IMG/VR virus record: IMGVR_UViG_3300047510_003180
Location: 1 to 33,615 of that record
Source of the DNA: a virus
Direction: 5' to 3' (one strand)
DNA length: 33,615 nucleotides
The translations under genes and the position numbers were made by a program. How positions within the stretch are numbered: the first letter of the stretch is position 1; each line of letters opens with the position of its first letter. This document shows, piece after piece, positions 1-32,766 of this stretch. A model generated the notes under the pieces. That model saw nothing but the letters and a program-made list of their open reading frames with translations. It was not told where the DNA came from and searched no databases.

Positions 1-2
1 CT

Positions 3-2162: not shown

Positions 2163-2172
2163 AATTATACTT

Positions 2173-10024: not shown

Positions 10025-10037
10025 CTTGTACTTATTG

Positions 10038-10664: not shown

Positions 10665-10704
10665 AGTCACATATTTATTGCCCAAAAAAACTAACAGTAA
10701 ATAT

Positions 10705-14055: not shown

Positions 14056-14097
14056 TTTATTACCAAATAAATAGTGTTATATTTAATATACAATAAA

Positions 14098-18152: not shown

Positions 18153-19366
18153 TCGTACCTCTTAATAAAAGGATATAGTTTTTGGTAGTTAGTTTTTCTA
18201 GTGATATCGTATAGATCCAGAACTCTGGTTCTTTCTGTCACTACTTCGTTAAAATCATTTATTTGACTTTGTAAAATTTCGATAGAATCTAGGATACCTT
18301 TCTTAAATCCTTTGCTATCACTTAATATTTTTAAATCTTTATTTGAACATTTTTTGAGAAGACATATAGCTTTTTCTTTTTGTTCGGGTTCTAGATATTC
18401 AAAAGAAAAATAGTCTGGTTGAAATACGATTCTAAGTACAACATCTAACCATTCTATATTATATTTTTCTGCTGTCTTTTCGAAAGTGTCTAGAATTTCT
18501 TCTATATCAAATATATTGAATATACTTATGGTAAAAGATATTCCAAGATTTCGATTGCCTGCTGAAATTAGTTTGTCTAAATTTTTTAAGAAATTGGAAT
18601 AAGTAGCAGGATATCTTATGAGCCTAAATTTTTCATCCTCTATATGATCCCAACTAATCCATAGTTCTTTTTTTGGAAATTGAGTTAGCTTAGATAACAT
18701 ATCGTCAGTTAAACTAGTGAGATTTACTGTAGTTGATAAGTGTATATCTGTATATTTGTGTCTAATACAATAATCCAAGAGATTGTGTGTTACGGGACTA
18801 ATTAATGGTTCACCACCCTGTAGTTCTAGTTTAATCTTATTCTTTAATAAACTTTCGATATTTTCTAAGATATAATCGCCTGCATAGAAATTACCTTGAT
18901 TAATTTCTTCAATGACTTCGAGCCATTTAGGCATTTTTATATTTTCAGTTCTAAACAATTTTACTTCTTTCTCATGCTGAGAACTCTGATAATGATTACA
19001 AGTAATACATTTTAAATTACAAGTATTATCTGATTTTAATCCTAACATCGAAGGTAAAGACTTTGTTTTTATGTTAATGTCTGTGTTTAGATTCTTAAAC
19101 ACTTTATTGAACTCTTGACGTTGACTGGTTGTTCCTCGAAGCTCTCTATTCCAACATACTTGACAATTTTTGTTTCTAACACCATTGAGTAAATCTTGTC
19201 TTAAGTTAACAAAATAATCATCGTTCCACGCTTGTTCTATAGTGTGAGTATTAATGTTACTATTTTTTGTATCGCCGGTCTGACTGTGACCGCAGGCTAC
19301 ATAATCTCCGTTACGCTCTAAATAGACATTAATAAAAGGCATAATACAAAATGTTTCTTTATTCAT
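18149..19366 (-). CDS. Twitch-domain radical SAM protein
   Basis: A 405-residue protein with an N-terminal cysteine domain (C7 in FCIMPF, C25, C68xxC71) and radical SAM motif C116/C120/C123 (CNLKCITC), followed by QGGEP. The CC pair of other twitch paralogues is a single Cys here (ACGHS), so the auxiliary cluster may be coordinated differently. It is a close paralogue of the adjacent upstream gene 19359-20666 (shared IRYPATYSNF/IRYPADYSVF and IFNIFD(I/F)E segments, and ERTRVL near the C-terminus), so a tandem duplication is likely. Overlaps are 8 bases upstream and 4 bases downstream. Confidence 0.85.
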   Translation of the reverse strand: MNKETFCIMPFINVYLERNGDYVACGHSQTGDTKNSNINTHTIEQAWNDDYFVNLRQDLLNGVRNKNCQVCWNRELRGTTSQRQEFNKVFKNLNTDINIKTKSLPSMLGLKSDNTCNLKCITCNHYQSSQHEKEVKLFRTENIKMPKWLEVIEEINQGNFYAGDYILENIESLLKNKIKLELQGGEPLISPVTHNLLDYCIRHKYTDIHLSTTVNLTSLTDDMLSKLTQFPKKELWISWDHIEDEKFRLIRYPATYSNFLKNLDKLISAGNRNLGISFTISIFNIFDIEEILDTFEKTAEKYNIEWLDVVLRIVFQPDYFSFEYLEPEQKEKAICLLKKCSNKDLKILSDSKGFKKGILDSIEILQSQINDFNEVVTERTRVLDLYDITRKTNYQKLYPFIKRYE

Positions 19367-20666
19367 AATCTTTTAAGTAAGGAAACATTGTTCTGTAATC
19401 TGTATTTCGAATTTGATCGTAAATTCTCAAAACTCGAGTTCTTTCTCTGCACACATCAGTGTGGTCAAGATTTTCATCTCCCATATAACCCGGCACGCTA
19501 ATCACACTTTCTACAAATTCTGGATTATCACGGAATATTTTATAATCATAATTGCGTGTCATAAAGTTGTTGATTCGGTCAGTTATTTCTTGTTTTTGAT
19601 CTAATTCTAGGTAGCGTAGACTAAAATAATTTGGATAATAAATTAATCCAAAGTTTATAACAAAACGATTAGTAGTTCTATGTGCAATAGTTTCCCATTC
19701 GGTAAAGATATCTTCGAAATCGAAGATATTAAAAATACCCCAGGTAGTACTAAGTTTTTTCTCTATATGTTCATATTCCCAAAGTTTTTCAAAATTTCTT
19801 TTAAACACCGAATAGTCTGCGGGATATCTTATAAAATTAAATTTTGCAGGATCAATATGGTCGTAGCTAATACATAGCATCGGATATTTGAATTGATTTA
19901 GCAATCCTATGGTTTTAGGATTGATCACAGATAGGTTTGTGATGATCTGTAACATCATATTTTTTGCATAACCTTTTTCCACACATTGCTCTAATAATCT
20001 TTGTGTGGTTTTGTTGACCAACGGCTCCCCGCCTACTAGACTCATGTGTATGGCCTGTTGCAAACTAGGGTCTAAATTTTCTACTATTGGTTCGATATCT
20101 AAATCTCTAGGATTAAAATCTTCAACCTTAAAATTAAATTCTTTTACTCTATTGTCGAACATCTTTAGAAGGCCAGGAAGCTCTATACCTTTAGATGTCA
20201 TTTCTTCTTGTTCGTCTTGATGTAGACTACTACTGCCCGGATAGCACATAATACACTTTAAGTTGCACTGTGTTCCTACTTTCACATCAAGGTCAGTTGG
20301 CGGTGTTGATAATGCACCTCCATTGGCCAGAGCATCGTTAACAAATTTATCATAATCTGGATACATAAAGTGTTTCTCGTCATTGGTCTTTTGACGCTTA
20401 CTATATGCACCCCCTGCTTCATAATTCCAGCAGTATTCGCAGGTGGGATTTTTAATTCCATTTAATAGATCTAATCTAAGCTTTTTATACTGATCGCTGT
20501 TCCATACCTCTATTACATTATCCTTTCTCATATTATAAGGAGTACCGTCGGGTTTGGCCACAACTATTTCTTCGCTGCAACAACAAGCTCGATAATTGCC
20601 GTCATTAGTAGAGCTTATGTGCGTAAACGGCAAAAGACAAAATGTAGGATGATTCTTATAATCCAT
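19359..20666 (-). CDS. Twitch-domain radical SAM protein
   Basis: A 435-residue protein with FCLLPF at 9-14, CCC at 28-30, CEYC at 76-79 and radical SAM motif C134/C138/C141 (CNLKCIMC), followed by VGGEP. Tandem paralogue of 18149-19366. The segment between CEYC and the core (about residues 85-128) is longer than in the neighbour. It overlaps the upstream kinase-like gene by 11 bases. The substrate is unknown. Confidence 0.86.
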   Translation of the reverse strand: MDYKNHPTFCLLPFTHISSTNDGNYRACCCSEEIVVAKPDGTPYNMRKDNVIEVWNSDQYKKLRLDLLNGIKNPTCEYCWNYEAGGAYSKRQKTNDEKHFMYPDYDKFVNDALANGGALSTPPTDLDVKVGTQCNLKCIMCYPGSSSLHQDEQEEMTSKGIELPGLLKMFDNRVKEFNFKVEDFNPRDLDIEPIVENLDPSLQQAIHMSLVGGEPLVNKTTQRLLEQCVEKGYAKNMMLQIITNLSVINPKTIGLLNQFKYPMLCISYDHIDPAKFNFIRYPADYSVFKRNFEKLWEYEHIEKKLSTTWGIFNIFDFEDIFTEWETIAHRTTNRFVINFGLIYYPNYFSLRYLELDQKQEITDRINNFMTRNYDYKIFRDNPEFVESVISVPGYMGDENLDHTDVCRERTRVLRIYDQIRNTDYRTMFPYLKDYE

Positions 20667-21246
20667 AAACTTTCTCGTAGATTTTAGGCAAAATGTTTCC
20701 AGGCCATTTTATATAATCATTGAACGCATACTTCATTAGAATTCTCATGTCTAATTTTCCGTCTGTACTGATCTTTTCAATAAGATCTAATCGATCGCTA
20801 TTTAAGATGGGTTTGTAAAAATCTATACTTATAGGTTGCTCAGAATAATCACTGGCAGAATAAAAGTTAAATGCGTGAATTTTATTTCTCGAGTCTACAT
20901 AAAAATATTTCGGATAGAAACTAGGCTTGTAAATTCCTTCTCGATCAAGATCAATAACAATAGATTCTAATTGACTAACATAATCGTCGGGAATAATATC
21001 TTCGCAGGTATTTCCGTACCAACGAAAAACAATGCGCCTAGTAATTTTATCCATAGTAACAATTTCGGGAGACCAGCTATACTTCTGTAATCGTTCCAAG
21101 TATCTCACTTCTCGAGAAAAACTGCTGTTAATTAAGTCTTCGGGATACCAGTTACCTTCGGGGTTAAAGTCCATGCAGAAAAGTCTACCGTCGTTGGTGA
21201 TTAGGCTTCTATAGATTCCACGATTTGAATTATATAATTTGAACAT
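20656..21246 (-). CDS. Kinase-fold-like protein of unknown function
   Basis: 196 residues, not firmly recognised. The layout suggests a small phosphotransferase fold: an N-terminal strand region, SREVRYLERL (possible helix C with Glu), a hinge-like VFRWYGN, and REGIYKPSFYPKYFYVD followed by HAFNFY. In a kinase the last two would hold the catalytic loop and the DFG Asp, which here reads Asn. A related protein is encoded at 24207-24893, with similar blocks (SKWNREVKYLIEM, LGLYKYSMHPSSYFIVD). It heads the minus operon of two twitch radical SAM genes and the aminotransferase, with an 11-base overlap. Confidence 0.4.
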   Translation of the reverse strand: MFKLYNSNRGIYRSLITNDGRLFCMDFNPEGNWYPEDLINSSFSREVRYLERLQKYSWSPEIVTMDKITRRIVFRWYGNTCEDIIPDDYVSQLESIVIDLDREGIYKPSFYPKYFYVDSRNKIHAFNFYSASDYSEQPISIDFYKPILNSDRLDLIEKISTDGKLDMRILMKYAFNDYIKWPGNILPKIYEKVYGL

Positions 21247-21269
21247 TTTTTCTCTAGTATTTACGCATC

Positions 21270-21277
21270 TATAAATA
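21270..21277 (+). promoter_or_regulatory. Exact T4-late-type TATAAATA element in a divergent gap
   Basis: TATAAATA lies in the 35-base gap between divergent genes 21246 (minus) and 21282 (plus). A T4-like late start would fall about 6 bases further on, at or just inside the ATG at 21282, so it would give a leaderless transcript or be chance. A near match CGTAAATA points the other way at 21258-21265. Confidence 0.35.
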
Positions 21278-21281
21278 CTCG

Positions 21282-21824
21282 ATGAAACTTATTGGGAATA
21301 CTCTACATCTCATAGATTGGGATACTGTTATTAACACAATTAAAGATCGATCTGGAAACACACTAAAGTATAATGATAGTTGTTTTCCAAAAACTGACGA
21401 CTTTGATCGGTTAGATAAAATTTGGACAAAGGCAGGATATCTAAGAAACTCTGAAGTAGTTGAGTGGACTAACTACTTTCCAGGAGATGATTTTGATAAA
21501 ACAGTTGTTGATCAATTTCGCAATATAGTTAGAGCAGAACCTTGGATGGTTTGGATTAGTAGAATACGCCCAGGAAAAATGGCTCCTTGGCATTTTGATG
21601 CACACAGCAAAATTAAAGATTTAGACAAATTAGGAACGCCGGTTAGATTTACTTGTTATATTCAATCACCGCAACCAGGACACGTTAGCATTGTAGAAAA
21701 CAGTTCAGTCTATATGCCGGATAAGGGAAGCATATACCAGTGGCCTAGTCATGATGCTTGGCATTGCGGTATGAATGGAGGATTAGAGGATAAGTTTATG
21801 TTTAATTATTGGGGTTATAAATGA
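21282..21824 (+). CDS. Putative 2OG/Fe(II) oxygenase, halogenase-linked
   Basis: 180 residues. The facial triad is H104-x-D106 (APWHFDAH) and H161 (DAWHCGMN). The residue after the distal His that is usually Arg appears to be Lys (K171, EDKFMFNYWG). It overlaps the halogenase gene by 4 bases (ATGA), so the two proteins are made together and may act on the same substrate. No ribosome site is visible before the ATG; the gap to the divergent gene is 35 bases. Confidence 0.65.
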   Translation: MKLIGNTLHLIDWDTVINTIKDRSGNTLKYNDSCFPKTDDFDRLDKIWTKAGYLRNSEVVEWTNYFPGDDFDKTVVDQFRNIVRAEPWMVWISRIRPGKMAPWHFDAHSKIKDLDKLGTPVRFTCYIQSPQPGHVSIVENSSVYMPDKGSIYQWPSHDAWHCGMNGGLEDKFMFNYWGYK

Positions 21825-23395
21825 ACGTAATAATTGTAGGAGGCGGAACAGCCGGATGGATGACCGCCGGATGGCTAGTTAAAAAGAATAAGAATGTGTC
21901 AATAACAGTAATTGAAAGCCCTGACATTCCAAAAATCGGAGTAGGTGAAAGTGTAACACCACACGTAGCTAATTTCTTTATAGAATTAGGAGTTCCCGAA
22001 GAACACTGGATGTATCATACTGGAGCAATCTATAAATTGGCTAATAAATTTGTTAATTGGAAAACAAATACAGGCGAAGCTGAATATTTTAGTTTTAATT
22101 ACACAGGGGACTCCCGATTATTCTATAAAGAAAATAGTGTGCCGTTGTCGAAGGACGACTGGCAAATTAAAAATCTACGATCATCAGATATATTATTAGA
22201 TTTATGTAATCAAGGTAAAATCGATAAATTTGGTAGTTATTTTCATACTCAGCATCATTACATGGAACAAAATCGAGCACCGTTTATTGATAACGAATAT
22301 TTGCTTAATCCGTTGTTTAGTTGGAGTCATCATATCAATGCTGAACTAACTGCTGAATACATACGAGATCACATTGCTATTCCAGCAGGGGTTGTTCATA
22401 TACAAGCCAAGGTAGTAGATGCTAGTATGCAGGGCGAAAATATCACTTCAGTTATTCTAGAAAATGGCGAAGTGATTACCGGCGATGTCTTTGTGGACTG
22501 TACAGGATTTAGACGATTACTAACAAATAAGTTAGGATGGAAAGTTAAAGAATATTCTGATGCCGCAGTTGACCGTGCATGGGTTTGTCAAATTGATTAT
22601 ACTAATCGTGAGAAAGAAATGGTCAATTATAGTCAGACTATTGCACACCCGCACGGTTGGATGTTCAGGATTAGTCTATATCATCGAATGGGGACCGGAT
22701 ACATCTTTAGCTCTAATCATACTACCGAAGAAAAAGCTAGAGAATATTTTCTTAATCAAATAGGTGATATGGATCGTAGATTTGATCCTAAATTAATAAA
22801 ATGGAATCCTAGTAGATTAGAGCATGCCGCTAATGGAAATACAGTAGCAGTGGGGTTAAGTTTTGGGTTTGTTGAACCTATGGAGGCTAATGCACTCTAC
22901 ACTATTATTACTACTATTGGTAAGTTGAGCGAGGCTATAGATAATAATTTAGACTTTGAGTTATTAAACAAAAATGTGTGTTATAGTATGGATGACATTG
23001 CTGACTTTGCAATGTTACATTACAGCCTAAGTCAGCGCACCGATACTAACTTTTGGAGTGACATGAGAAGTCGTAATGTTAATAATGGTCATATCGATCT
23101 GCTATACAGTAAGTATACTAATCCAATGCATTCGATGTCTAGTTGCATCGATGGAACTACATTATTTCCTGACTACATGTGGGCACACTTAGCACAGGCA
23201 TGGGGAGTTGATACTAGCTCCTGGAATATTAAAGTTGATACGGCAACTCAAGAACTTGCCAAACTTTATTATGAATATCAATACAATAAACATAAGATAG
23301 CCAGCAGCAAATGTAACAATAATTATTTATGGCTAAAAAAGAATCGATTCAACAATTTAAATTCCCAAGAATGGGAACGTTTAATACGAGGTTAA
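21821..23395 (+). CDS. Flavin-dependent tryptophan halogenase family protein
   Basis: 524 residues, normal length. FAD-binding GxGxxG is GGGTAGW at 7-13; IGVGES is at 39-44. Lys72 and Lys76 lie in YKLANKFVNW, where the catalytic lysine of tryptophan halogenases is found. GFVEPMEA at 349-356 corresponds to the conserved GFLEPLE segment. The WxWxIP signature that separates halogenases from monooxygenases reads WMFRIS at 280-285, so its second Trp and the Pro are replaced. It could halogenate a substrate other than free tryptophan, such as a protein side chain, or may have lost activity. It is flanked by two putative 2OG oxygenases, one coupled and one convergent (15-base overlap). Confidence 0.88.
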   Translation: MNVIIVGGGTAGWMTAGWLVKKNKNVSITVIESPDIPKIGVGESVTPHVANFFIELGVPEEHWMYHTGAIYKLANKFVNWKTNTGEAEYFSFNYTGDSRLFYKENSVPLSKDDWQIKNLRSSDILLDLCNQGKIDKFGSYFHTQHHYMEQNRAPFIDNEYLLNPLFSWSHHINAELTAEYIRDHIAIPAGVVHIQAKVVDASMQGENITSVILENGEVITGDVFVDCTGFRRLLTNKLGWKVKEYSDAAVDRAWVCQIDYTNREKEMVNYSQTIAHPHGWMFRISLYHRMGTGYIFSSNHTTEEKAREYFLNQIGDMDRRFDPKLIKWNPSRLEHAANGNTVAVGLSFGFVEPMEANALYTIITTIGKLSEAIDNNLDFELLNKNVCYSMDDIADFAMLHYSLSQRTDTNFWSDMRSRNVNNGHIDLLYSKYTNPMHSMSSCIDGTTLFPDYMWAHLAQAWGVDTSSWNIKVDTATQELAKLYYEYQYNKHKIASSKCNNNYLWLKKNRFNNLNSQEWERLIRG

Positions 23396-24184
23396 GTGAT
23401 CAATACCTAACTTTTTTCGAAAAGCTTCTGTAAATTTTCCGTCAATGCGTAAGCTGTAACTTTGTTCGATGATCTTTTCGCCGCCGTGCCAGTCTTGATC
23501 GTTCCACCAAGCAGCACGAGTGTTTAGATAAACTTTATTTTTTGTATCCGGATCCCAAATATAAAAGGCTTTTTTAGTATTGGGTCTAATATGTATGAAT
23601 TCATTACGATGTGGAAATGTAATGTTCATACCGTTCTTAGCATCTAGATCCCTGTGTTCAAATGGTATACCATCATGATCACAGTGAAAGAAAATAACAC
23701 GACCGATGTGTTCAAATATACCTCGATCGATGGTAGATTCCACCCACTTGACTACATTGGGAAAATACGCAGCTTCTTCTGTAAGTTTGCGAGGAGCCGT
23801 GCGATCGTCCCAAGAACCTTCTTCCCATAAGAAATAGTAAATGTAGGGATCGTACGCACCTAGAGCCATTTTTAGATAACGAGTAAATTTGTTTCTAGTT
23901 TGATGGTCTTTGATATTTGTATAAAGATCCCATCCCCCTCGTTTGATAGGGTCATTATCCGGTAAGGATAGATATTCTTCTAGTGCTTGGTAGATAGGTT
24001 TCCAATGGGGAGTGTAGCTCATTTCTTCAAAGGTAAATCCCGGTGCCATCCAAGTACCTTCTTTGGCATAGGGGCGTGCCTCGGCGAACCCACGGATGAT
24101 TTCTGGTTGCAGTTTATCAAAAGTCTGCATATCCAAAAATTTTTCCATATCGAAATAGGTTTGGCCGTTTATTCCTCTGATCAT
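23381..24184 (-). CDS. Putative 2OG/Fe(II) hydroxylase, larger type
   Basis: 267 residues. After a ~150-residue N-terminal part of unknown role, the C-terminal half has H177-x-D179 (FEHRDLD), a distal H233 (DQDWHGG) and R246 (YSLRIDG). The segment between holds FIHIRPNTKKAFYIWD, similar in style to hydroxylase-like proteins of marine myoviruses. The ATG at 24184 follows a CTAGGAAAAAT ribosome site. It converges on the halogenase gene with a 15-base overlap and diverges from the kinase-like gene at 24207 across 22 bases. Confidence 0.6.
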   Translation of the reverse strand: MIRGINGQTYFDMEKFLDMQTFDKLQPEIIRGFAEARPYAKEGTWMAPGFTFEEMSYTPHWKPIYQALEEYLSLPDNDPIKRGGWDLYTNIKDHQTRNKFTRYLKMALGAYDPYIYYFLWEEGSWDDRTAPRKLTEEAAYFPNVVKWVESTIDRGIFEHIGRVIFFHCDHDGIPFEHRDLDAKNGMNITFPHRNEFIHIRPNTKKAFYIWDPDTKNKVYLNTRAAWWNDQDWHGGEKIIEQSYSLRIDGKFTEAFRKKLGIDHLTSY

Positions 24185-24206
24185 ATTTTTCCTAGATAAT
24201 TACTGT

Positions 24207-24893
24207 ATGAAGTACGAATACTACTATAATAATGTTCCCGGCATTGGTTTAACAAGGAACAACCTTATTTACACCAGTCTTATCAGTGACGATAAAAAAA
24301 CTTTTGTCATGTGGTTTCACAATGACAGCGAATATCATCGAGGTCAAAATGAAGTAATTGATTCAGAGTTAATGAAATCTAAATGGAACCGTGAAGTAAA
24401 ATACCTTATAGAAATGTCTTGGAAGTATGAGGATAAAGTCCCAAAAATACTAGAGATAGATCATCAAAATCAAAAAATATATTTGGCTATCGATGGTTTA
24501 GATTTTTGGAATCGCGCAGGCTGTTTGACAGAAAACTATAACAGCGTATTACCCGATTGGCAAGATCAAATGTTAAGAATATTAACTGCTCATAGATCTT
24601 TGGGATTGTACAAGTATTCAATGCACCCGAGCAGTTATTTTATTGTTGATGGTCAATTAAAAAGTATAAATTATTTCTTTTGCTATCACAAAAATGAAGG
24701 ACCAATCTCTATCAAAGACCATTCAAGTCATATACATTCTAATAGACAAGTAGAAATGCGTAAACATATAGATAGGCTAGGAATTAGTTGGACAGAACCT
24801 CAACCTTTGGCACTCCTGCAAGACCTCTGCTGGGAAAGTTTTAGAACAAATTATCCTAGCGATTTTATTGAGAAGGCAAAATGTATAAAGTAA
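24207..24893 (+). CDS. Kinase-fold-like protein of unknown function
   Basis: 228 residues, related to 20656-21246. Shared blocks: SKWNREVKYLIEM (SREVRYLERL in the partner), VPKILEID, an IDGLDFW hinge-like segment, and LGLYKYSMHPSSYFIVD followed by SINYFF. The HP of HPSSYF could belong to a catalytic loop; the expected metal-binding Asp of DFG is replaced by Asn (INY), as in the paralogue. It overlaps the following GNAT-like gene by 13 bases. The fold call is tentative. Confidence 0.4.
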   Translation: MKYEYYYNNVPGIGLTRNNLIYTSLISDDKKTFVMWFHNDSEYHRGQNEVIDSELMKSKWNREVKYLIEMSWKYEDKVPKILEIDHQNQKIYLAIDGLDFWNRAGCLTENYNSVLPDWQDQMLRILTAHRSLGLYKYSMHPSSYFIVDGQLKSINYFFCYHKNEGPISIKDHSSHIHSNRQVEMRKHIDRLGISWTEPQPLALLQDLCWESFRTNYPSDFIEKAKCIK

Positions 24894-25435
24894 TTCCTTG
24901 GTCAGAAGATTTAGATCTCGATCAATTTTATATTACAGCAAGGGCTAAAGGTTTTGAAAATAATTCTAGTCAACAGATGTTAGTCGATTGTTTTCGTAAA
25001 GAAAAAGAATGGCAGGTATGGATTTTATTTTATAATGATATAGCCGTAGGCAGTGTAGCAGCACATAGTTTTCCAGAGATGGGGGAGAACGCATACAGAA
25101 TCGCTGCTAGAACCTGTGTGTTTACTGATCATTTACCTACAACTACACTACGTACTAGAAATCAAATAGTTACTCATCAGCACGTTACTAGTCAGTTTTT
25201 AATTCCAGTATGTATAGAATGGTGCCCTAAAGATTCTAAATTATACATAACCAGCAATGAAAACTCTGCAGGAACACAAAAATTAGTGCATCGAATATTT
25301 GGTCCTGCTATGGAGGGGACTGGGCAAATGAAAAGGATTTGCGAAATGTATTATCGGGGAACTTACCAAACTGTGTGGCAGTTATTCCCCGATTGCTTTT
25401 ATAAAGAATTAAACAAATATCCTAGATGGAATTAA
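24881..25435 (+). CDS. GNAT-like protein, function unknown
   Basis: 184 residues. An early helix region is followed by WQVWILFYNDIAVGSVAAHSF, which resembles strands 2-4 of an N-acetyltransferase fold, and YRIAARTCVF. No confident acetyl-CoA-binding (R/Q)xxGxG loop is found, so the call rests on the strand pattern only. The gene is coupled to the kinase-like gene and overlaps the tail-fibre gene tail-to-tail by 4 bases, so it may act near virion fibres (inference). Confidence 0.35.
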   Translation: MYKVIPWSEDLDLDQFYITARAKGFENNSSQQMLVDCFRKEKEWQVWILFYNDIAVGSVAAHSFPEMGENAYRIAARTCVFTDHLPTTTLRTRNQIVTHQHVTSQFLIPVCIEWCPKDSKLYITSNENSAGTQKLVHRIFGPAMEGTGQMKRICEMYYRGTYQTVWQLFPDCFYKELNKYPRWN

Positions 25436-26988
25436 GGTTCAATAGCCATTTGTCTCCAACCACCACCTAGATAAACTACCGCCTGTTGCTTACCAGGCGC
25501 CGTTGTTGGATTCCAACTTGTACCGTCAGCAATAGCTACCATGCCATTTGCAGGAGTTGCTGGGGGTGCTGTTAATACTGCTAATTTAGCAAAACCGTTA
25601 ATGTCTAGCGTTGCTGCTGGTGCTGAAAAACCACCATTAATAGAAACTCCGGTTTCTGTAATTTGAATACCTTTAGCCTGAGAAACATCATTATTAGGAA
25701 TCGTTACTAAAAATATTTTAGCTGGAGTATCACCGGATCCTACTGTGTCTACTTGAATTTCAAGTGCAGCAGAAGCTGTGTAAGTTGATCCGTCATAGGA
25801 TAACCAAGACTGTGACCAAATTGAATCTCCACTTGATAATACCGTGGGCGCAGCATCAGTTCCTCTGTGAGCATAACTTAGGAAAGTTGGAACTGACCCT
25901 GTTGTATTTTTAAGAAAGGTTTCAATAATGGGAGCTGATGAATTGCTGATTAATCTAATACCTGTATCGTCTACTGCTAATGAGCCGGATATTACTATTT
26001 CGCTTCCTGCAGAACTAGAAGTAATCGAGTTAGCAGAAATAGAAACAATGCCGTTGCTGATAAATGGATCTATTCCGCTTAATAATAGCACAGAGTTATC
26101 GTTGAATATCGATCCAACTACATCGCCTTCTAAACTACCTGTTACATTACCAGTTAAATTACCTGTTACATTGCCAGTTAAATTACCTGTTACATTGCCA
26201 GTTACTGAGCCTGTGAATACAGCATCGGTGCCGTTGGTTCCGGAATCTAATACCACCGCGCTATTTGCTGCTCTAACATCGCCTTTTAAATTTCCTACCA
26301 CATCGCCGATAAAGCCATCAGGAGCTGTAATCAAACCTGTACTCGAATTCACTAATACAGTACTGTCATCTGCTACGATATTGATATTATAATTACTGCC
26401 AGATACTACCCCGTCTCCTAACCCGGAACCGGAGCCTATTGCTACACCCCCAACAGTAGATCCTGCTGGTAAATTAATCGCAGATCCTGTAGCAGTGATA
26501 ACAGCGTTTCCTACATAAAGACTGGAACCGCTCAAATATAAATCTTTAAATCTTTTAGAAGCACTACCTAAATCATAGGTAGAATCTACATAAGGAATCA
26601 CATTGCTTCTAATAGTATTATCTAGATTAATTGCTCCTAGTATTCCATCTACTAATATTGTGCTAGTATCATCAGTGAATACTGAACCTTTAATATCTAA
26701 AACAACAACTCCACCTCCTACGGTCGCTGAAATTTTGTTAGCGGCGTCGTCATAAAAGAATGATATACCGGTGTGTGTACCAGATGAAAGAACGCTGGCT
26801 ACAGCATCTTGAGCATCCTCGATTCCGAACGATGATACTGTATTTCCGCCAAGAGTTCCGGTAATTCCCCCGTCTGCGCTGTCACCAACAAAAACCTGTT
26901 TTAATGTAGTATCATAGATCAATTCGCCTATGATGGGCCTAATTGATGTTCTTTCCGCTGTTGTTCCTCTGCGAATTTGTAAAGGCAT
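25432..26988 (-). CDS. Tail-fibre-like structural protein with Gly/Asn/Thr repeats
   Basis: 518 residues, acidic and Gly/Ser/Asp/Val-rich. It begins with MPLQIRRGTTAERTS and GELIYDTTLKQVFVGD, a module found at the N-terminus of many phage fibre proteins. The middle has xGNVTGNLTG repeats (three 24-base copies at 26135-26206) of the kind that form fibrous beta-structures. The C-terminal LDINGFAKLAVL and GGGWRQMAIEP end is typical of marine phage fibres. AGGAG at 26998-27002 is a good ribosome site, and CATAAATA at 27023-27030 is a T4-late-type promoter. It is the only clear structural protein here and a candidate substrate of the enzyme island (inference). Confidence 0.75.
   Translation of the reverse strand: MPLQIRRGTTAERTSIRPIIGELIYDTTLKQVFVGDSADGGITGTLGGNTVSSFGIEDAQDAVASVLSSGTHTGISFFYDDAANKISATVGGGVVVLDIKGSVFTDDTSTILVDGILGAINLDNTIRSNVIPYVDSTYDLGSASKRFKDLYLSGSSLYVGNAVITATGSAINLPAGSTVGGVAIGSGSGLGDGVVSGSNYNINIVADDSTVLVNSSTGLITAPDGFIGDVVGNLKGDVRAANSAVVLDSGTNGTDAVFTGSVTGNVTGNLTGNVTGNLTGNVTGSLEGDVVGSIFNDNSVLLLSGIDPFISNGIVSISANSITSSSAGSEIVISGSLAVDDTGIRLISNSSAPIIETFLKNTTGSVPTFLSYAHRGTDAAPTVLSSGDSIWSQSWLSYDGSTYTASAALEIQVDTVGSGDTPAKIFLVTIPNNDVSQAKGIQITETGVSINGGFSAPAATLDINGFAKLAVLTAPPATPANGMVAIADGTSWNPTTAPGKQQAVVYLGGGWRQMAIEP
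26135..26206 (-). repeat. Three 24-base tandem repeats in the fibre gene
   Basis: Three successive 24-base copies, differing at a few bases, encode an eight-residue unit (NVTGNLTG). A related NVTG block precedes them in the protein. Such repeats can change copy number by slippage and so alter fibre length. Confidence 0.85.
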
Positions 26989-28052: not shown

Positions 28053-28460
28053 TTATGCTATTGCTCTACGAAAAATTAATTCTTGTTTTGAAAATGCTTC
28101 CACTTCCCAAGGACAGTTTAGATACTTTGTCCTTTTATTATAGCATTTACCATTCCAATAATTTACACCTTTTTCGGTTTTAAGAATTCCCCTGGCTAAC
28201 TGTTTAACATGAACCATTTCGTGAGCTAGTGTAATTCCCATACGTTCTAAAGATTGAGGCTTTATTATAACGATAAGACCGCCTACTTGCCTAATGTAAG
28301 TAGTTTGGCCATCAGTATCTTCGTCTACATCACTTCTACTAACCTTTACAAATAGAGCTTTGCGACTCTTTGTTAGGCCTAATTGTTTTATCATTGAAGG
28401 TAATATTCCTTCAATGAATTGTTTAGTTCTTTTATTTCGTGCGTGAACTAGATACTGCAT
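28053..28460 (-). CDS. SprT-like zinc metallopeptidase
   Basis: 135 residues with a zinc-peptidase HExxH at 80-84 (LAHEMVHVKQ) and a later PWEVEAF segment whose Glu (E119 or E121) could be the third ligand, as in small SprT-like or minigluzincin-type domains. The preceding strand region (YIRQVGGLIVII) is in the expected place. It starts on the last base of the phosphatase gene stop codon region (1-base overlap), so it is coupled. Similar small peptidases are common in T4-like phages; the target is unknown. Confidence 0.68.
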   Translation of the reverse strand: MQYLVHARNKRTKQFIEGILPSMIKQLGLTKSRKALFVKVSRSDVDEDTDGQTTYIRQVGGLIVIIKPQSLERMGITLAHEMVHVKQLARGILKTEKGVNYWNGKCYNKRTKYLNCPWEVEAFSKQELIFRRAIA

Positions 28461-29023
28461 TAAATATCACCTTCTCTTTCTCTGCGAGCTCTGCGCTCTG
28501 CAGCCAGTGTAAAAACTTTTTCGTTGTCGTTGGTCCATTCTACAGTCTTAGGAAGAATGATTCCGAACTCAGTTGTTTGACCGTTAATGGTGTGAGGCTC
28601 ATTTTCGTCATAGGTCCAACCTAATGCCTTCATCATACGATGTTTTACCAGCAGGTTAGGGCTACGAAAAGCTTCAGTATCACGGAAGCCTAGCATAACA
28701 CCGATCTCACAAACAGCACCAGAGCGACAAACGCCTGCGTGGCAATGAACAACAACGTTCATACGCTGTTCAAATGCGTGTTGTAACAATCGAACAAGCT
28801 CGTCGGCCTGCTCTTGTGAACATCGCATCGCCTCATCTAAGACATGATCTTTTTCCTCAACATCCAAAAATTGGAATTGATGAACTTCTCGGAACTGATA
28901 TTTCGGGGTAGGAAAATCCCCAGGAGGATCGCAGATCTGTATCAACATAGAATTGATACCTGCATCAATATGGAAACCTTTACGTATATCGCTGAGTGCT
29001 ACGTTTTGTATCCAAGGTGCCAT
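28460..29023 (-). CDS. Dual-specificity protein phosphatase-like
   Basis: 187 residues with the cysteine-phosphatase loop CxxxxxR at C94-R100 (HCHAGVCRSG) and a possible general acid in FLDVEEKD (D54). It should dephosphorylate Tyr, Ser or Thr residues or small phosphates. The C-terminus is a basic tail (RRARRERE). Its ribosome site AAAGGAG is strong. It follows IF-1 by 12 bases. Confidence 0.8.
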   Translation of the reverse strand: MAPWIQNVALSDIRKGFHIDAGINSMLIQICDPPGDFPTPKYQFREVHQFQFLDVEEKDHVLDEAMRCSQEQADELVRLLQHAFEQRMNVVVHCHAGVCRSGAVCEIGVMLGFRDTEAFRSPNLLVKHRMMKALGWTYDENEPHTINGQTTEFGIILPKTVEWTNDNEKVFTLAAERRARREREGDI

Positions 29024-29035
29024 AGCACTCTCCTT

Positions 29036-29254
29036 TTACAATCTATATGTTACACGACCTTTGGTAAGATCGTAGGCACTTACTTCTATTTTAACTTTAT
29101 CACCTAAAATTATTTTAATCTTGTGTTGCTTTAATTTACCACCGGTATAACAAAGTATAGGATTAGGCATTTGCTCTAATTTAACTCGATACATACTACC
29201 GGGAAGAACTTCTTCTACAACTCCAACTAATTCTATTAAGTCAGATTTTGACAT
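29036..29254 (-). CDS. infA: Translation initiation factor IF-1 homologue
   Basis: 72 residues, the same length as Escherichia coli IF-1, and collinear with it: IELVGVVEEVLPGSMYRVKLE, then GDKVKIEVSAYDLTKGRVTYR, which matches the GDKVxVExxxYDLxKGRIxxR end of IF-1. IF-1 is an OB-fold protein that binds the 30S A site during initiation. Unlike cellular IF-1 it has a PNPILCYTGGK segment in the middle. No ribosome site stands directly before its ATG; a 9-codon upstream ORF overlaps the start. A consensus sigma70 promoter lies just upstream. It heads the operon with the phosphatase, SprT-like and small genes. Confidence 0.92.
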   Translation of the reverse strand: MSKSDLIELVGVVEEVLPGSMYRVKLEQMPNPILCYTGGKLKQHKIKIILGDKVKIEVSAYDLTKGRVTYRL

Positions 29255-29270
29255 AGGTATTTTTAATCAT
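29241..29270 (-). CDS. Nine-codon upstream ORF overlapping the IF-1 start
   Basis: ATG at 29270 reads nine codons (MIKNTYVKI) and stops with TGA at 29243-29241, inside the IF-1 gene in another frame. GGAG at 29280-29283 sits 9 bases before this ATG and about 25 bases before the IF-1 ATG. Ribosomes should therefore load on the short ORF and reach IF-1 by coupling or reinitiation. Translation has not been shown. Confidence 0.45.
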   Translation of the reverse strand: MIKNTYVKI

Positions 29271-29292
29271 TTTGTGATTCTCCGTTTATTAT

Positions 29293-29321
29293 ATTATAAT
29301 ATCTTTTTGATTATGTGTCAA
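29293..29321 (-). promoter_or_regulatory. Consensus sigma70 promoter for IF-1
   Basis: TTGACA (29316-29321), 17 bases, TATAAT (29293-29298) on the minus strand. The expected start near 29286 gives a leader of about 32 bases. The -35 box begins 2 bases from the CCA end of tRNA-Gly(GCC). Confidence 0.9.
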
Positions 29322-29322
29322 T

Positions 29323-29396
29323 TGGAGCGGGTAGCGAGAATCGAACTCGCAAATCAACTTTGGCAAAGTTGTAGGTTACCATTACATCATACCCGC
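29323..29396 (-). tRNA. tRNA-Gly (GCC)
   Basis: Acceptor GCGGGTA/TACCCGC, anticodon stem CAACT/AGTTG with loop TTGCCAA (anticodon GCC), T-loop TTCGATT, discriminator T and encoded CCA. It starts one base after the stop codon of the oxygenase gene on the same strand. Confidence 0.96.
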
Positions 29397-29397
29397 A

Positions 29398-29970
29398 TTA
29401 ATAATATTCGACATCTGCTGCTAGTATAAATCTATATTTGTTGCTTTGAACTATACCAGGTCTGTGCCATTTATCACCAGGATAAATTAACCAACTATAC
29501 TCCGAAGGTCTAACAAAAAATTTATTGTCGGACTCTAATCCGTCAGGAGCAAATTCTGTTCCGCAGTAGTCTAAGTCTTTGACATCATCTGGTATATGGA
29601 GATAAAATATTCCGCTCATTATTTTACCTTCGGGCTTCTGTGGATGCCAGTGATGGTGCCATAATTTTTCACGGTTTTCGGCACTTTCAAGATTTGTCAT
29701 GAACGACCAGGCCATCATATTAGATACTTTTACTTCTCGACCCAGATACATAAACACAGAAAATAAAAAGCTCATCCTGTATTTTAACCAAACTGGTTCT
29801 GGACGAGCGAAGATGTTTTCTTTAGTTTGATATTTGGGACTATTGGTAAAATAATTACCGTCTGAAATAATGTTCTTGATTGTACCTATAGCTGATTTAT
29901 TATCGTCTGCAGTGATTACAGAGTTAAAATCAAATTTCCGGAAGATATCGTTTTGATCTATGACTTGCAT
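29398..29970 (-). CDS. Putative 2OG/Fe(II) oxygenase inserted between two tRNA genes
   Basis: 190 residues. A histidine-rich WHHHWHP (about 104-110) precedes SGIFYLHIPDD, and PGDKWHRPG with H169 and R180 (KYRFILAAD) follows. This is the layout of the phage 2OG oxygenase family with H-x-H/D...H...R (PF13759-like). The ATG is 6 bases after the CCA end of tRNA-Gly(TCC), and the stop codon is 1 base before tRNA-Gly(GCC), so it sits as a cassette between the two with no room for an ordinary ribosome site. Confidence 0.72.
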   Translation of the reverse strand: MQVIDQNDIFRKFDFNSVITADDNKSAIGTIKNIISDGNYFTNSPKYQTKENIFARPEPVWLKYRMSFLFSVFMYLGREVKVSNMMAWSFMTNLESAENREKLWHHHWHPQKPEGKIMSGIFYLHIPDDVKDLDYCGTEFAPDGLESDNKFFVRPSEYSWLIYPGDKWHRPGIVQSNKYRFILAADVEYY

Positions 29971-29976
29971 TTTGTA

Positions 29977-30053
29977 TGGAGCGGGTAGGGAGAGTCGAAC
30001 TCCGCATTGTCAGCTTGGAAGGCTGCTGGACGCCCCTTGTCCTATCTACCCGC
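29977..30053 (-). tRNA. tRNA-Gly (TCC)
   Basis: Acceptor GCGGGTA/TACCCGC as in the other Gly tRNA, anticodon loop CTTCCAA (TCC), T-loop TTCGACT, CCA encoded. Its acceptor stem matches that of tRNA-Gly(GCC) although the D and anticodon arms differ. Confidence 0.95.
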
Positions 30054-30071
30054 ATATAACTATTTACACTG

Positions 30072-30146
30072 TGGCCTCGCCACCAGGAATCGAACCTGGA
30101 TTTAATTCTTAGGAGGAACTCGTTCTATCCATTGAACTACAGCGAG
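30072..30146 (-). tRNA. tRNA-Arg (CCT)
   Basis: Acceptor CTCGCTG/TGGCGAG, anticodon stem AGTTC/GAATT with loop CTCCTAA (anticodon CCT, reading AGG), T-stem CCAGG/CCTGG, discriminator G, CCA encoded. The 5' end abuts the TAA stop of the small gene 30147-30329 with no gap. Confidence 0.94.
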
Positions 30147-30329
30147 TTAATCTTCATCCGGTGGATTGGCCAACGGACTTGTAGATGGTTTTTTCTTTGA
30201 CCAAGATGAATAACTTTCACCTTCAACTCTCCCACTTTGATTTGGTTTGAGTTGTTGCACTACTCCGCCCTTAGCGAAAAATTCTTCTAGCGCTCGATCC
30301 AATGCTGCTTTTTCTTCTTCTTTAGTCAT
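30147..30329 (-). CDS. Small charged protein, unknown
   Basis: 60 residues: a helical acidic N-terminal half (TKEEEKAALDRALEEFFAKGG) followed by VVQQLKPNQSGR and a Ser/Pro-rich tail. The EEFFAKGGxVxQL pattern resembles a short segment seen in some small regulatory proteins, but no family can be named. AAAAGGC lies upstream of the ATG. Its stop codon touches the 5' end of tRNA-Arg(CCT). Confidence 0.55.
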   Translation of the reverse strand: MTKEEEKAALDRALEEFFAKGGVVQQLKPNQSGRVEGESYSSWSKKKPSTSPLANPPDED

Positions 30330-30347
30330 ATTGCCTTTTATAAAAAT

Positions 30348-30425
30348 TGGTCGGAGTACAAGGATTCGAACCTTGGACCCCCTGGTCCCAAACCAGGTGC
30401 GCTAGCCAGACTGCGCCACACTCCG
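30348..30425 (-). tRNA. tRNA-Pro (TGG)
   Basis: Acceptor CGGAGTG/TACTCCG, anticodon stem CCTGG/CCAGG with loop TTTGGGA (anticodon TGG), T-loop TTCGAAT, CCA encoded. Confidence 0.96.
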
Positions 30426-30432
30426 AATAAAT

Positions 30433-30506
30433 TGGTTGCGGGACCTGGAATCGAACCAAGGACTAGAGCTTATGAGACTCTCGAGATACCCCTTCTCCAT
30501 CCCGCG
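30433..30506 (-). tRNA. Initiator-type tRNA-Met (CAT) with non-standard anticodon stem
   Basis: The acceptor starts CGCGGGA and ends TCCCGCA-A-CCA, so C1 and A72 are unpaired, and the D-stem GAGA/TCTC has the A11:T24 pair: both are initiator hallmarks. The anticodon loop is CTCATAA. The anticodon stem is AGAGT/GCTCT, so only the middle of the usual three consecutive G:C pairs (30:40) is kept, with A29:U41 and U31:G39 on either side. It was probably derived from an initiator tRNA. Confidence 0.9.
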
Positions 30507-30510
30507 ATAA

Positions 30511-30677
30511 CTTTAGTTGATAGTACTCGCCGTCTATGACAACGTGTCTATTTAGGAGTCCGGTGCTTCCGTTCCACAGCATCTAACAACAGTTATTTCA
30601 GACCTAGTAACATGCCATACTATGTCGCGTAGTATATGCGTCCATATACGATACCTGTCGAGTGCTATCAACTAAAG
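30511..30677. ncRNA. Candidate structured RNA closed by a 19-bp inverted repeat
   Basis: Arms 30511-30529 and 30659-30677 pair over 19 bp with one exception (positions 30524/30664). In a plus-strand RNA that position is a U-G wobble, in a minus-strand RNA an A-C mismatch. Inside is a perfect 7-bp hairpin (GTATATG/CATATAC at 30632-30649) that competes with an 8-bp stem at 30617-30635. No ORF of note lies inside. The neighbouring genes are on the minus strand, so the direction is open. I could not match it to tmRNA, RNase P, 6S or a group I intron. Confidence 0.5.
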
Positions 30678-30861
30678 TGTCTAGCCACGGTTCCCTGTCC
30701 GCCCTAAACTGAGTTGTTACCCTGTCCACTGTATTTTGCTTCTGGTGCCGTTACAGTTCGTACCTAGGATTTTTCAAGTCGCTCCTAAAGAGAGCCTTGC
30801 GGTAGATCCTACACACCGTACCTTCTATCGCTTGGTAATGGCGCACTTTCTTCCTGAAAAG
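30678..30861. other. Non-coding stretch beside the inverted repeat
   Basis: 184 bases with no good ORF. On the minus strand it contains short local stems (GTAG-GAT-CTAC; GCTC-GAGC; CTGTA-TACAG) and a doubled GGACAGGG motif. It lies between the terminator-like hairpin after 30877-31455 and the inverted-repeat element, so it may be part of the same RNA or a tRNA precursor leader. Confidence 0.4.
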
Positions 30862-30881
30862 TGTAACAGGGGTCTGTTACA
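30862..30881 (-). terminator. Terminator-like hairpin overlapping the stop codon
   Basis: TGTAACAG and CTGTTACA form an 8-bp stem with a 4-base loop; on the minus strand it is followed by CTTTTC. The stop codon of 30877-31455 is within the stem. The T-tract is short, so it may only partly stop transcription or act as a processing or stability hairpin. Confidence 0.5.
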
Positions 30882-31455
30882 GTAAGCCTTCTGCCTGCAG
30901 GGTAGCCACTGTGTCATCAGCCAGAGGAATCTCTGTCTTGATGTTAAGCTCAAGAACCTCATCGTTGATCTTTTGCTTGGACTTCTTCAAGCTAAGGATT
31001 TCTCCTTTGGCCTGATCGATCTGTTCTTTACTGACCACAGTAGTACTCACTGTGTCACCGTAGCCGTAGATACGACTACGAGCTTCGTCCTTGAGACTTT
31101 TGATTTTCTCAAGTTTACCTTTAATCACTTCGAGATCAGTAAAAGGTTTTAGATCAGATAACTGTTCTAGTTGACCAATACGTTTATCGATAAATGCTGC
31201 TTTGGCCAAGGCAGTATCAATGCCGCTGGCCGCATTAGCTGTACCAACTAAGGCTCGAATGTTATACAGAGCCATTGTTAGTTTTTGACGACGAGCATCT
31301 GCAGCGAACAGTGCTTCGTTGGCTTTGGTTAGTTCAATTCCGGGATCCTGGAACTCGTTGAGTTCGACTGTGGTGTCGAACTTGATATTCTTTACTGCAT
31401 CGTTGATGCTGTTCTGGATGGTGTTGGCTTTCCTCAGAGTGATATTCATTCCCAT
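30877..31455 (-). CDS. Helical, probably coiled-coil protein of unknown function
   Basis: 192 residues, rich in Ala, Lys, Leu, Ile and Glu with long predicted helices: about residues 38-75, and 115-175 with heptad-like spacing ([33 protein letters not shown]). No enzyme motif, signal peptide or membrane segment. Its ATG overlaps the rpoZ 3' end by 10 bases with GGAAAAATCGAA upstream, so it is coupled to omega. Codon use is richer in G and C than in the left-hand island. Function not recognised; a partner of RNA polymerase or a virion protein are both possible. Confidence 0.6.
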
Positions 31456-31676
31456 TTCGATTTTTCCTTTTTCTTCAATTTAGTTAGATATTCTGATTTG
31501 GTATACTTGCCTTGTTCAATCTCTCTTAGAGCTGTAATAGTAGGTGATGCATCTTTTCCATCTACTCGTTGAATTGATCCGTTCTTTAATTCTCTAGCTC
31601 TCTGACTGGCAACTAAGACTAGATCAAATCTGTTACCAATTTGATTTACTGCTTCTTCTGATGAAATTCTTGCCAT
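31446..31676 (-). CDS. rpoZ: RNA polymerase omega subunit homologue
   Basis: 76 residues starting [20 protein letters not shown], which matches bacterial omega ([28 protein letters not shown] in E. coli reads the same way), then [14 protein letters not shown] and [13 protein letters not shown], equivalent to VIALREIEEG. Omega binds the beta' C-terminus and helps assembly and stability of RNA polymerase. The copy is slightly shorter than the E. coli protein at the C-terminus. It has a TAAGGA ribosome site and its own promoter. Omega is usually host-encoded, so a phage copy is unusual. Confidence 0.9.
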
Positions 31677-31689
31677 CTTGTTTCCTTAT

Positions 31690-31718
31690 ATTATACTGAC
31701 GGGTCAACGAAAGGTCAA
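31690..31718 (-). promoter_or_regulatory. Sigma70-type promoter directly upstream of rpoZ
   Basis: TTGACC (31713-31718), 17 bases, TATAAT (31690-31695) on the minus strand, one mismatch in the -35 box. The start would be close to the TAAGGA ribosome site of rpoZ, so the leader is very short. Confidence 0.8.
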
Positions 31719-31968
31719 GTAATAGACCGGACAATAGACAACGAAAGGTTTGTAATCTTTCTTTGACAATGTGCAAATAACAATACACAGAGGTCTATAT
31801 ATTTCCGATTAACAAATGACATTCTATTAGGGTCGGATCACATAAACACGGTCCAATTTTCAAGGTTGGATTGTAAGTTCGGATTAGGCTGGTAGCCTAA
31901 GCCTGTGTCTGTGTCTATCCTCATCTACCTTTCATCTCACCGGTTGCGTATTGCTACACAACAAAACT
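31719..31968 (-). ncRNA. Candidate leader or small RNA between two promoters
   Basis: About 250 bases transcribed from the consensus promoter at 31969-31997 and ending at the rpoZ-proximal promoter. No ORF of note. It holds a perfect 7-bp hairpin (TTAGGCT-ACC-AGCCTAA), a 5-bp TCCAA/TTGGA stem and, near the rpoZ end, an 11-bp stem with two mismatches (31740-31770 region). CAACGAAAGG occurs twice near its left end (31705 and 31739). It could be a regulatory 5' leader of rpoZ or a stand-alone RNA. Confidence 0.45.
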
Positions 31969-31997
31969 ATTATAAAACAAAAATGACCTTTTGTCAA
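31969..31997 (-). promoter_or_regulatory. Consensus sigma70 promoter
   Basis: TTGACA (31992-31997), 17 bases, TATAAT (31969-31974) on the minus strand: a perfect match. It lies 16 bases beyond the CCA end of tRNA-Thr and faces the leader RNA and rpoZ. Confidence 0.9.
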
Positions 31998-32013
31998 GTC
32001 ATTTTGAGCATCT

Positions 32014-32087
32014 TGGTGCCGCTTGATGGAATCGAACCAACGATTGATGCTTACAAGGCAACTGTTATACCATTTAACTAAAGCGGC
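32014..32087 (-). tRNA. tRNA-Thr (TGT)
   Basis: Acceptor GCCGCTT/AAGCGGC, anticodon loop CTTGTAA (TGT), T-loop TTCGATT, discriminator A, CCA encoded. One T-T mismatch in the anticodon stem. Confidence 0.94.
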
Positions 32088-32093
32088 GACATT

Positions 32094-32167
32094 TGGTGGA
32101 GGATAACAGAATCGAACTGTTAATCTCGGCTTGCAAAGCCGATGTTATCCCATTTAACTAATCCCCC
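32094..32167 (-). tRNA. tRNA-Ala (TGC)
   Basis: Anticodon stem TCGGC/GCCGA with loop TTTGCAA (TGC). The acceptor GGGGGAT/ATCCTCC contains the G3:U70 pair that identifies alanine tRNA. Discriminator A, CCA encoded. Confidence 0.96.
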
Positions 32168-32183
32168 AAATACTGATAACTAC

Positions 32184-32363
32184 TTATTCTGTTGATGGTT
32201 CTTTACGGCTTTTTTCTCTCTTTGGTTGGATAGCGGCAGCAAGTTCTGCACTAATCATAGCCCGCTTCCAATCATGGCGCTGTTGCTGGCTAGAGAATCT
32301 ACTTAGTGCTAGGCTAGTTTTTAGAGGTTTGCTCATTCGATAATTTGGACCCGGTTTCAACAT
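32184..32363 (-). CDS. Small basic protein between tRNA genes
   Basis: 59 residues starting MLKPGPNYRMSKPLK, rich in Lys and Arg at both ends, with a central HDWKRAMISAELAAAI helix. A ribosome site (AAAAGGAAAAATAA then ATG) supports translation. No family recognised; not a match to bS21 or another small ribosomal protein that I can see. It ends 16 bases before tRNA-Ala. Confidence 0.6.
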   Translation of the reverse strand: MLKPGPNYRMSKPLKTSLALSRFSSQQQRHDWKRAMISAELAAAIQPKREKSRKEPSTE

Positions 32364-32383
32364 TTATTTTTCCTTTTAAAATT

Positions 32384-32478
32384 TGGTGGAAGCGGAGGGA
32401 TTCGAACCCTCGGACCATAAGTTCATTACAATCGACGGTTTAGCAAACCGCTGCCTTCAGCCTCTCAGCCACACTTCC
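32384..32478 (-). tRNA. tRNA-Ser (GCT)
   Basis: Class II tRNA of 95 bases with a long variable arm; acceptor GGAAGTG/CGCTTCC, anticodon loop TTGCTAA (GCT), T-stem GAGGG/CCCTC, CCA encoded. Confidence 0.95.
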
Positions 32479-32483
32479 TAACT

Positions 32484-32558
32484 TGGTGCATCGTAATGGA
32501 GTCGAACCACTGACATTCGCCTTGTAAGGGCGACGTTCTACCGCTGAACTAACGATGC
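32484..32558 (-). tRNA. tRNA-Val (TAC)
   Basis: Acceptor GCATCGT/ACGATGC, anticodon stem TCGCC/GGCGA with loop CTTACAA (TAC), discriminator A, CCA encoded. Confidence 0.96.
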
Positions 32559-32565
32559 AAAAATC

Positions 32566-32649
32566 TGGTGCCCCAGAGGAGACTCGAACTCCTACGCCTT
32601 GCGACACTGGCTTCTAAGACCAGCGTGTCTACCATTCCACCACCGGGGC
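32566..32649 (-). tRNA. tRNA-Leu (TAG)
   Basis: Class II tRNA of 84 bases with a variable arm; acceptor begins GCCCCGG, anticodon stem CTGGT/GCCAG with loop CTTAGAA (TAG), T-loop TTCGAGT, discriminator A, CCA encoded. Confidence 0.95.
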
Positions 32650-32657
32650 ATTTGTAT

Positions 32658-32686
32658 ATTATGTATTCTTTGTTGACAAATGTCAA
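32658..32686 (-). promoter_or_regulatory. Sigma70-type promoter inside the tRNA cluster
   Basis: TTGACA (32681-32686), 17 bases, CATAAT (32658-32663) on the minus strand, between tRNA-Arg(TCT) and tRNA-Leu. It should drive tRNA-Leu, Val, Ser, the 59-residue gene, Ala and Thr. The -35 lies in the 14-base palindrome TTGACAAATGTCAA (32673-32686). Confidence 0.8.
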
Positions 32687-32694
32687 CAGTATTC

Positions 32695-32766
32695 TGGCGC
32701 CTCTGGAGAGATTCGAACTCCCATAACCTGGTTTAGAAGACCTGGCACCGCTCCATCGGCAGAGGC
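32695..32766 (-). tRNA. tRNA-Arg (TCT), short D-arm
   Basis: Acceptor GCCTCTG/CAGAGGC with discriminator G and CCA; anticodon loop CTTCTAA (TCT, reading AGA). The D-arm is compact (CCG/CGG stem directly after the acceptor) and the anticodon stem has an A-A mismatch, so folding is weaker than in its neighbours. It starts one base after the TauD-like stop codon. Confidence 0.88.

Follow-up and report, generated by a model that had tools for sequence, protein, structure and literature searches.

The window, meaning the whole 33,615-base IMG/VR virus fragment that was analysed, carries on its minus strand a compact block in which a tRNA-Gly gene is followed by a consensus sigma70 promoter, a GGAG Shine-Dalgarno (SD) motif, a nine-codon ORF (the mini-ORF) and a gene for translation initiation factor IF-1 (Table 1). 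Only 1 nt lies between the 3' end of the tRNA and the -35 hexamer, and the position of the promoter predicts a transcript start at ~29286, which leaves no more than ~32 nt between the predicted 5' end and the IF-1 AUG (from TATAAT it is 22 nt to the mini-ORF ATG and 38 nt to the IF-1 ATG). The GGAG motif is separated from the mini-ORF ATG by the 9 nt AATCACAAA, and the mini-ORF stops inside IF-1, overlapping it by 14 nt, with IF-1 in the +1 frame. The perfect promoter, the GGAG placed 9 bases from the short ORF and the end of that ORF inside IF-1 had all been described in a sequence-only reading of this DNA, and each was recovered here. The IF-1 protein matches PF01176 with 63.5–64.5 bits (cut-off 30.2) over profile positions 1–64 of 64, which places it in that family, and the nearest cellular IF-1s share 45–61% identity with the phage protein and come from many phyla, mostly Proteobacteria. 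The next gene in the presumed operon encodes a dual-specificity phosphatase-like protein, and such a gene is also found 3' of IF-1 in the related viral loci L007, L010, L013, L017, L024 and L163.

Table 1. Features of the window and, where a locus number is given, of related viral contigs.
Feature	Location	Strand	Details
tRNA-Gly (gcc)	29323..29396	-	ARAGORN; Rfam tRNA 60.2 bits
Consensus sigma70 promoter	29293..29321	-	TTGACA (from 29321), 17-nt spacer, TATAAT (to 29293); 12/12
Shine-Dalgarno GGAG	29280..29283	-	9 nt 5' of mini-ORF ATG, 25 nt 5' of IF-1 ATG
Nine-codon leader ORF, MIKNTYVKI-stop	29241..29270	-	ATG ATT AAA AAT ACC TAT GTC AAA ATC TGA
Phage translation initiation factor IF-1, 72 aa	29036..29254	-	PF01176; no SD of its own
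Dual-specificity phosphatase-like gene	28460..29023	-	Next in presumed operon; own strong SD (-9.1)
Structured RNA, ~135 nt	31968..~31830	-	After perfect promoter 31997..31969
RNA polymerase omega-like subunit	31446..31676	-	PF01192, 50.5 bits
Eleven tRNA genes among small genes, several consensus promoters	29323..32766	-	
Radical SAM gene island	1..25000		
Tail-fibre-like protein	25432..26988	-	Major-tropism-determinant N-terminal domain (PF18454)
Gene X	L011:5790-6011		MYKV... family
Gene X	L067:5769-5991		MYKV... family
Metallopeptidase-like gene (MEYVIEAR...)	L102 (L015 contig) +1937, relative to IF-1		
Metallopeptidase-like gene (MEYVIEAR...)	L169/L047 ~+1107, relative to IF-1		

We note several other features of the window. 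The tRNA-rich region upstream of IF-1 also encodes an RNA polymerase omega-like subunit, whose gene lies near the IF-1 and tRNA genes and begins 13 nt after an 11/12 promoter, as well as a structured RNA of ~135 nt that is conserved in 21 distinct copies in related contigs. This RNA has three hairpins with compensatory changes (judged by eye) and an invariant core ACCGG...AGGTAGATGAG...AGAC...CGTG..GTG..CCG, gave no match in Rfam 15, and is possibly a new phage ncRNA. The opposite end of the window holds an island of radical SAM genes, of which five were confirmed with Pfam (some with a SPASM or weak B12-binding match) and others are similar-looking, together with a tryptophan-halogenase-like flavoprotein (PF04820, 297 bits), a class-III aminotransferase and several 2OG oxygenase-like genes. 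The island is unusual phage cargo and perhaps serves the modification of peptides or small molecules. It is followed by the gene for a tail-fibre-like protein (Table 1).

The IF-1 ATG had been described as lacking an adjacent ribosome site, and its anti-SD duplex energy was found to be +0.6 kcal/mol, compared with -6.6 kcal/mol for the mini-ORF ATG and -5.4 to -9.1 kcal/mol for the neighbouring minus-strand genes at 27.1–29.0 kb. The arrangement is that of a coupled leader, with an upstream ORF that has its own SD and a stop ending at +14 of IF-1, and with an IF-1 start that is without a strong independent initiation signal. It is not that of a leaderless message, as the start codon of IF-1 does not lie within a few bases of the predicted transcript start. 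AU-rich sequence surrounds the IF-1 start, this region is not more structured than shuffled versions of it (z 0.28), and no RNA structure masking the IF-1 start was found beyond chance in the window or in L007. Unlike the window, L007 and L015 have an SD near the IF-1 start, which in L007 is an AAGGA within the mini-ORF ahead of IF-1 (-6.1) and in L015 a possible SD (GAGGT) close to the IF-1 ATG.

Overlapping genes are common in the window genome (several pairs), and the overlap alone is nothing special there. In dinucleotide shuffles of the window leader, an overlapping mini-ORF appeared in 35% and an SD-led one in 4%, and the window mini-ORF taken singly is only weakly significant; relatives were therefore searched. 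An SD-led nine-codon ORF was found at exactly -16 of the IF-1 ATG in L007 and L017 too, where the chance of one at exactly this position in a composition-matched random leader is ~0.0025 and ~0.0026, respectively, and it is because of this recurrence that the mini-ORF stands above chance, with the architecture conserved beyond what chance would give. When all viral contigs were scanned for the nine-codon ORF pattern, the IF-1 cases were confined to the window clade, L007/L008 and L017, and there are only three examples of SD-led nine-codon leaders outside near-identical contigs.

The window promoter and the 38-nt distance to IF-1 are the same in L007. The two leaders are identical at 16/38 positions (13/35 excluding the ATG) and the IF-1 coding sequences at 82.9%, and despite this near-random divergence both leaders retain the promoter, length, SD, ATG and open frame. 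The mini-ORF peptides (MIKDVYVKN in L007, MTKRIYAKE in L017, MYNIISKNG in L163 and MRSNVKKRFN in L015, each followed by a stop) differ among loci, with the common C-terminal YVK forced by the IF-1 codons, and such differences are expected if ribosome delivery alone matters. It should be noted that the mini-ORF stop follows largely from the IF-1 K-[S/T/N]-D codons and adds no independent evidence.

Scans of viral contigs, confirmed with tblastn, yielded 82 distinct IF-1 loci whose upstream sequence was long enough for analysis (the contigs are metagenomic and include many near-copies, and our counts are of distinct sequences, not independent events). In 72/82 loci IF-1 is preceded by a long ORF, which has at least 45 codons or runs off the contig and whose end falls within -18 to +23 of the IF-1 ATG, the commonest overlaps being +14 (20 loci) and +8 (16 loci). 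Mini-ORFs are present in five of the 82, with nine codons each in the window clade, L007, L017 and L163 and ten in L015, and in a further three (L010, L013 and L019) a 12/12 promoter has its -10 box ending 5–6 nt before the IF-1 ATG, which is then the predicted first base of the message. Two loci, L080 (at a contig end) and L109, were not assigned to an arrangement, and the eight assigned loci without a long upstream gene are accordingly divided between mini-ORFs (five) and predicted leaderless starts (three). Absence of the short ORF from related phages had been named in the sequence-only reading as a refuting observation, and most of them do lack it, but a longer overlapping gene or a leaderless start is found instead. 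What is conserved is therefore the architecture and not the short ORF as such, and the absence of a private ribosome site is a lasting feature of this phage IF-1 gene.

In the nearest relatives the gene just 5' of IF-1 encodes a small protein of 72–78 aa (MYKV...), referred to here as gene X, which is widespread beside phage IF-1 and has nothing convincing in Pfam or PHROGs and no match among isolated phages. The X promoter has the layout TTGACA-17-TATAAT-6 nt-ATG, with the ATG exactly 6 nt after TATAAT, and X is predicted to be very often leaderless. We surveyed promoter–ATG distances in all IF-1-bearing loci (1.69 Mb including overlapping copies), which contain 140 distinct perfect-promoter contexts. 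Measured from TATAAT, the first ATG opening an ORF of at least 50 codons lay 6 nt away in 30 contexts, 5 nt in one and 7 nt in four; none of the 140 fell at 8–20 nt, and all others were at 21 nt or more. The 6-nt cases were X or IF-1 in all, to which the L163 nine-codon ORF can be added, and both genes in these relatives have their ATG at the predicted transcript start with no SD. The 7-nt cases are all from one metallopeptidase-like family (Table 1), which may have a near-leaderless start after a perfect promoter.

This 6-nt start is retained by X away from IF-1 in L042, L045, L048, L165, L305 and L340. Across 20 clusters of X/IF-1-type promoters the spacer and linker sequences average 41% alike, and the hexamers (perfect by construction of the list), the spacer length (17, once 18) and the linker length (6, once 5) persist; the end of a tRNA lies near the -35 box, at ≤12 nt in 14/20 and ≤2 nt in 13/20. 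Promoter perfection at X is not merely an effect of the filter, because under a looser threshold (9 of 12 or better) 23 X starts still had 12/12 and a single one had 11/12. Matches of 9/12 near an ATG inside MazE-like genes lie within coding sequence and were judged spurious, and a broad scan of viral contigs with the promoter pattern, from which no counts were taken, returned mostly unrelated genes among the matches listed.

An IF-1 tree of 216 nt (short, so that only starred branches were counted) grouped the window with L007 (98 support) and L017 with L009 (97 support). In the other members of the group, either X or IF-1 is predicted to be leaderless or, in L015, a mini-ORF is present, and L009 itself carries gene X at the place of the L017 mini-ORF. 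The SD-led nine-codon leaders thus have at least two origins.

The sequence anatomy of the locus, its distribution and its recurrence are directly observed, and from these we infer that the mini-ORF is translated and that IF-1 is reached by reinitiation. We suggest, with a probability of about 0.68, that the nine-codon ORF serves as a leader cistron, loading ribosomes and feeding them to IF-1 in a naturally bicistronic start. Host RNA polymerase would transcribe from the consensus promoter just 3' of tRNA-Gly, and a ribosome would then bind GGAG, read nine codons and terminate 14 nt within IF-1, after which the ribosome or its small subunit would restart at the SD-less IF-1 AUG, 11 nt back. 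The leader peptide itself would be unimportant, and since the IF-1 start region is unstructured, the leader would act through ribosome delivery rather than by opening a hairpin. In relatives, a long overlapping or abutting upstream gene, or a leaderless IF-1 AUG at the 5' end, would do the same job. That upstream short ORFs can hand ribosomes on to a coupled gene is a general proposal in the literature (PMC12548453, PMC4633059). According to the first of these, a review, coupling works best at -4 to +3 nt and declines with longer overlap, and as the -14 spacing seen here is outside this range, modest efficiency is predicted. Coupling or reinitiation had been proposed in the sequence-only reading, and it gains support from the lack of an SD at IF-1, from an IF-1 start that in nearly all relatives lies within an upstream frame or adjacent to its end, and from mini-ORFs that arose at least twice in lineages lacking the long upstream gene.

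Ribosomes might alternatively initiate directly at the IF-1 AUG, assisted by S1 or as 70S particles near the 5' end, with the short ORF adding little. Direct initiation is possible at an AU-rich start with no stable structure around it and only ~32 nt from the predicted 5' end, and the predicted leaderless relatives suggest that the gene manages without an SD; however, a strong SD is retained at the mini-ORF position in diverged lineages, strong SDs precede the neighbouring minus-strand genes, and we consider this explanation unlikely. We think it very unlikely that the mini-ORF is a non-functional remnant left by deletion of gene X. In L163 the descent is clear, as eight of the nine mini-ORF residues match the start of an X homologue and the X promoter and 6-nt linker are retained, so that X seems to have been shortened to a leader there, and the L017 mini-ORF occupies the place of X in its sister L009. 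The window leader, in contrast, has no significant similarity to the head or tail of X (for the match to L009 X, p ~0.09), and we do not claim such a descent for it; the window and L007 leaders have moreover kept SD, ATG, frame and length while becoming near-random in sequence, and an origin as a remnant is in any case compatible with a present function.

An RF2-like +1 frameshift at the mini-ORF TGA, which would give IF-1 an altered N-terminus, is suggested by the TGA stop and the +1 frame of IF-1, but it was rejected as next to impossible: the codon before TGA is ATC, AAC and GAG in the window, L007 and L017, respectively, so that there is no conserved slippery codon, the window has no internal SD at the site, and the IF-1 ATG is the start used by relatives in which X is a separate gene. 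The sequence-only reading had also supposed that synthesis would be early and self-limiting. A consensus promoter of host type is compatible with early synthesis. An overlapping upstream ORF could in principle titrate ribosomes off the main ORF, and the short ORF would then be an attenuating regulatory uORF through which IF-1 lowers its own synthesis. This seems highly improbable to us, as IF1 is reported to stimulate the initiation routes concerned rather than to oppose them, and the peptide is not conserved, which argues against nascent-peptide sensing. IF1 strongly stimulates 70S-scanning reinitiation, and depletion of IF1 to 25% greatly cut coupling in vivo (PMC12548453); leaderless translation is stimulated by IF1 in vitro (PMC9031893). 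As both coupling and leaderless initiation are stimulated, positive feedback is predicted, and we infer that any feedback of IF-1 on its own synthesis is more likely to be positive than negative. A more speculative extension, which we regard as doubtful, is that IF-1 is made almost only via IF-1-favoured routes (reinitiation following a short or long overlapping ORF, and leaderless starts at a 5' AUG) and very rarely from a private SD-led start, and is thus insulated from competition for SD sites and self-amplifying, with the tRNA–promoter–AUG cassette a dedicated and recurrent device.

Several elements of this arrangement have known counterparts. In the coupled and leaderless small ORFs of mycobacteria (Shell et al. 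2015, PMC4633059), the stop of a short ORF likewise overlaps the downstream start, the coupled architecture is in some cases conserved when the peptide is not, and the short ORF may be initiated leaderlessly, as is predicted for L163. That work highlights RTGA (4-nt) overlaps in actinobacteria, whereas the phages described here have 14- or 8-nt overlaps, and the window leader is SD-led with an initiation factor as its target. The engineered bicistronic design (PMC6302717) also consists of a promoter, a first SD and a short leader ORF overlapping the gene start, and the SD that it places inside the leader is matched by L007 but not by the window clade, which is without a second SD; the phage arrangement differs in being natural and in having a leader of nine codons. 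Leaderless mRNAs such as that of lambda cI (PMC9031893) resemble the relatives in which the ATG of X or IF-1 is at the expected sigma70 transcript start with no SD, although the window itself is not leaderless, the starts of the relatives are predicted and the message encodes IF-1. The IF1 of huge phages has been interpreted as one element in taking over the initiation of host translation (Al-Shayeb et al. 2020, PMC7162821), and the passages of that paper that were searched say nothing on how the IF1 gene itself is initiated. Phage IF1 (in the same passages), leaderless messages, coupled short ORFs and engineered bicistronic leaders are therefore already known, and our searches of open-licence PMC papers turned up no account of a phage initiation factor arranged in these ways.

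An SD-led start belonging to IF-1 itself is very rare across diverse related phage contigs, and loci that lack the coupled upstream gene have instead a mini-ORF or a start predicted to be leaderless. Both of these initiation routes are reportedly stimulated by IF1, and this leads to a simple and testable proposal in which a feed-forward loop would contribute to the takeover of translation. The natural minimal leader cistrons, with their independent origins, also provide material for studying reinitiation.
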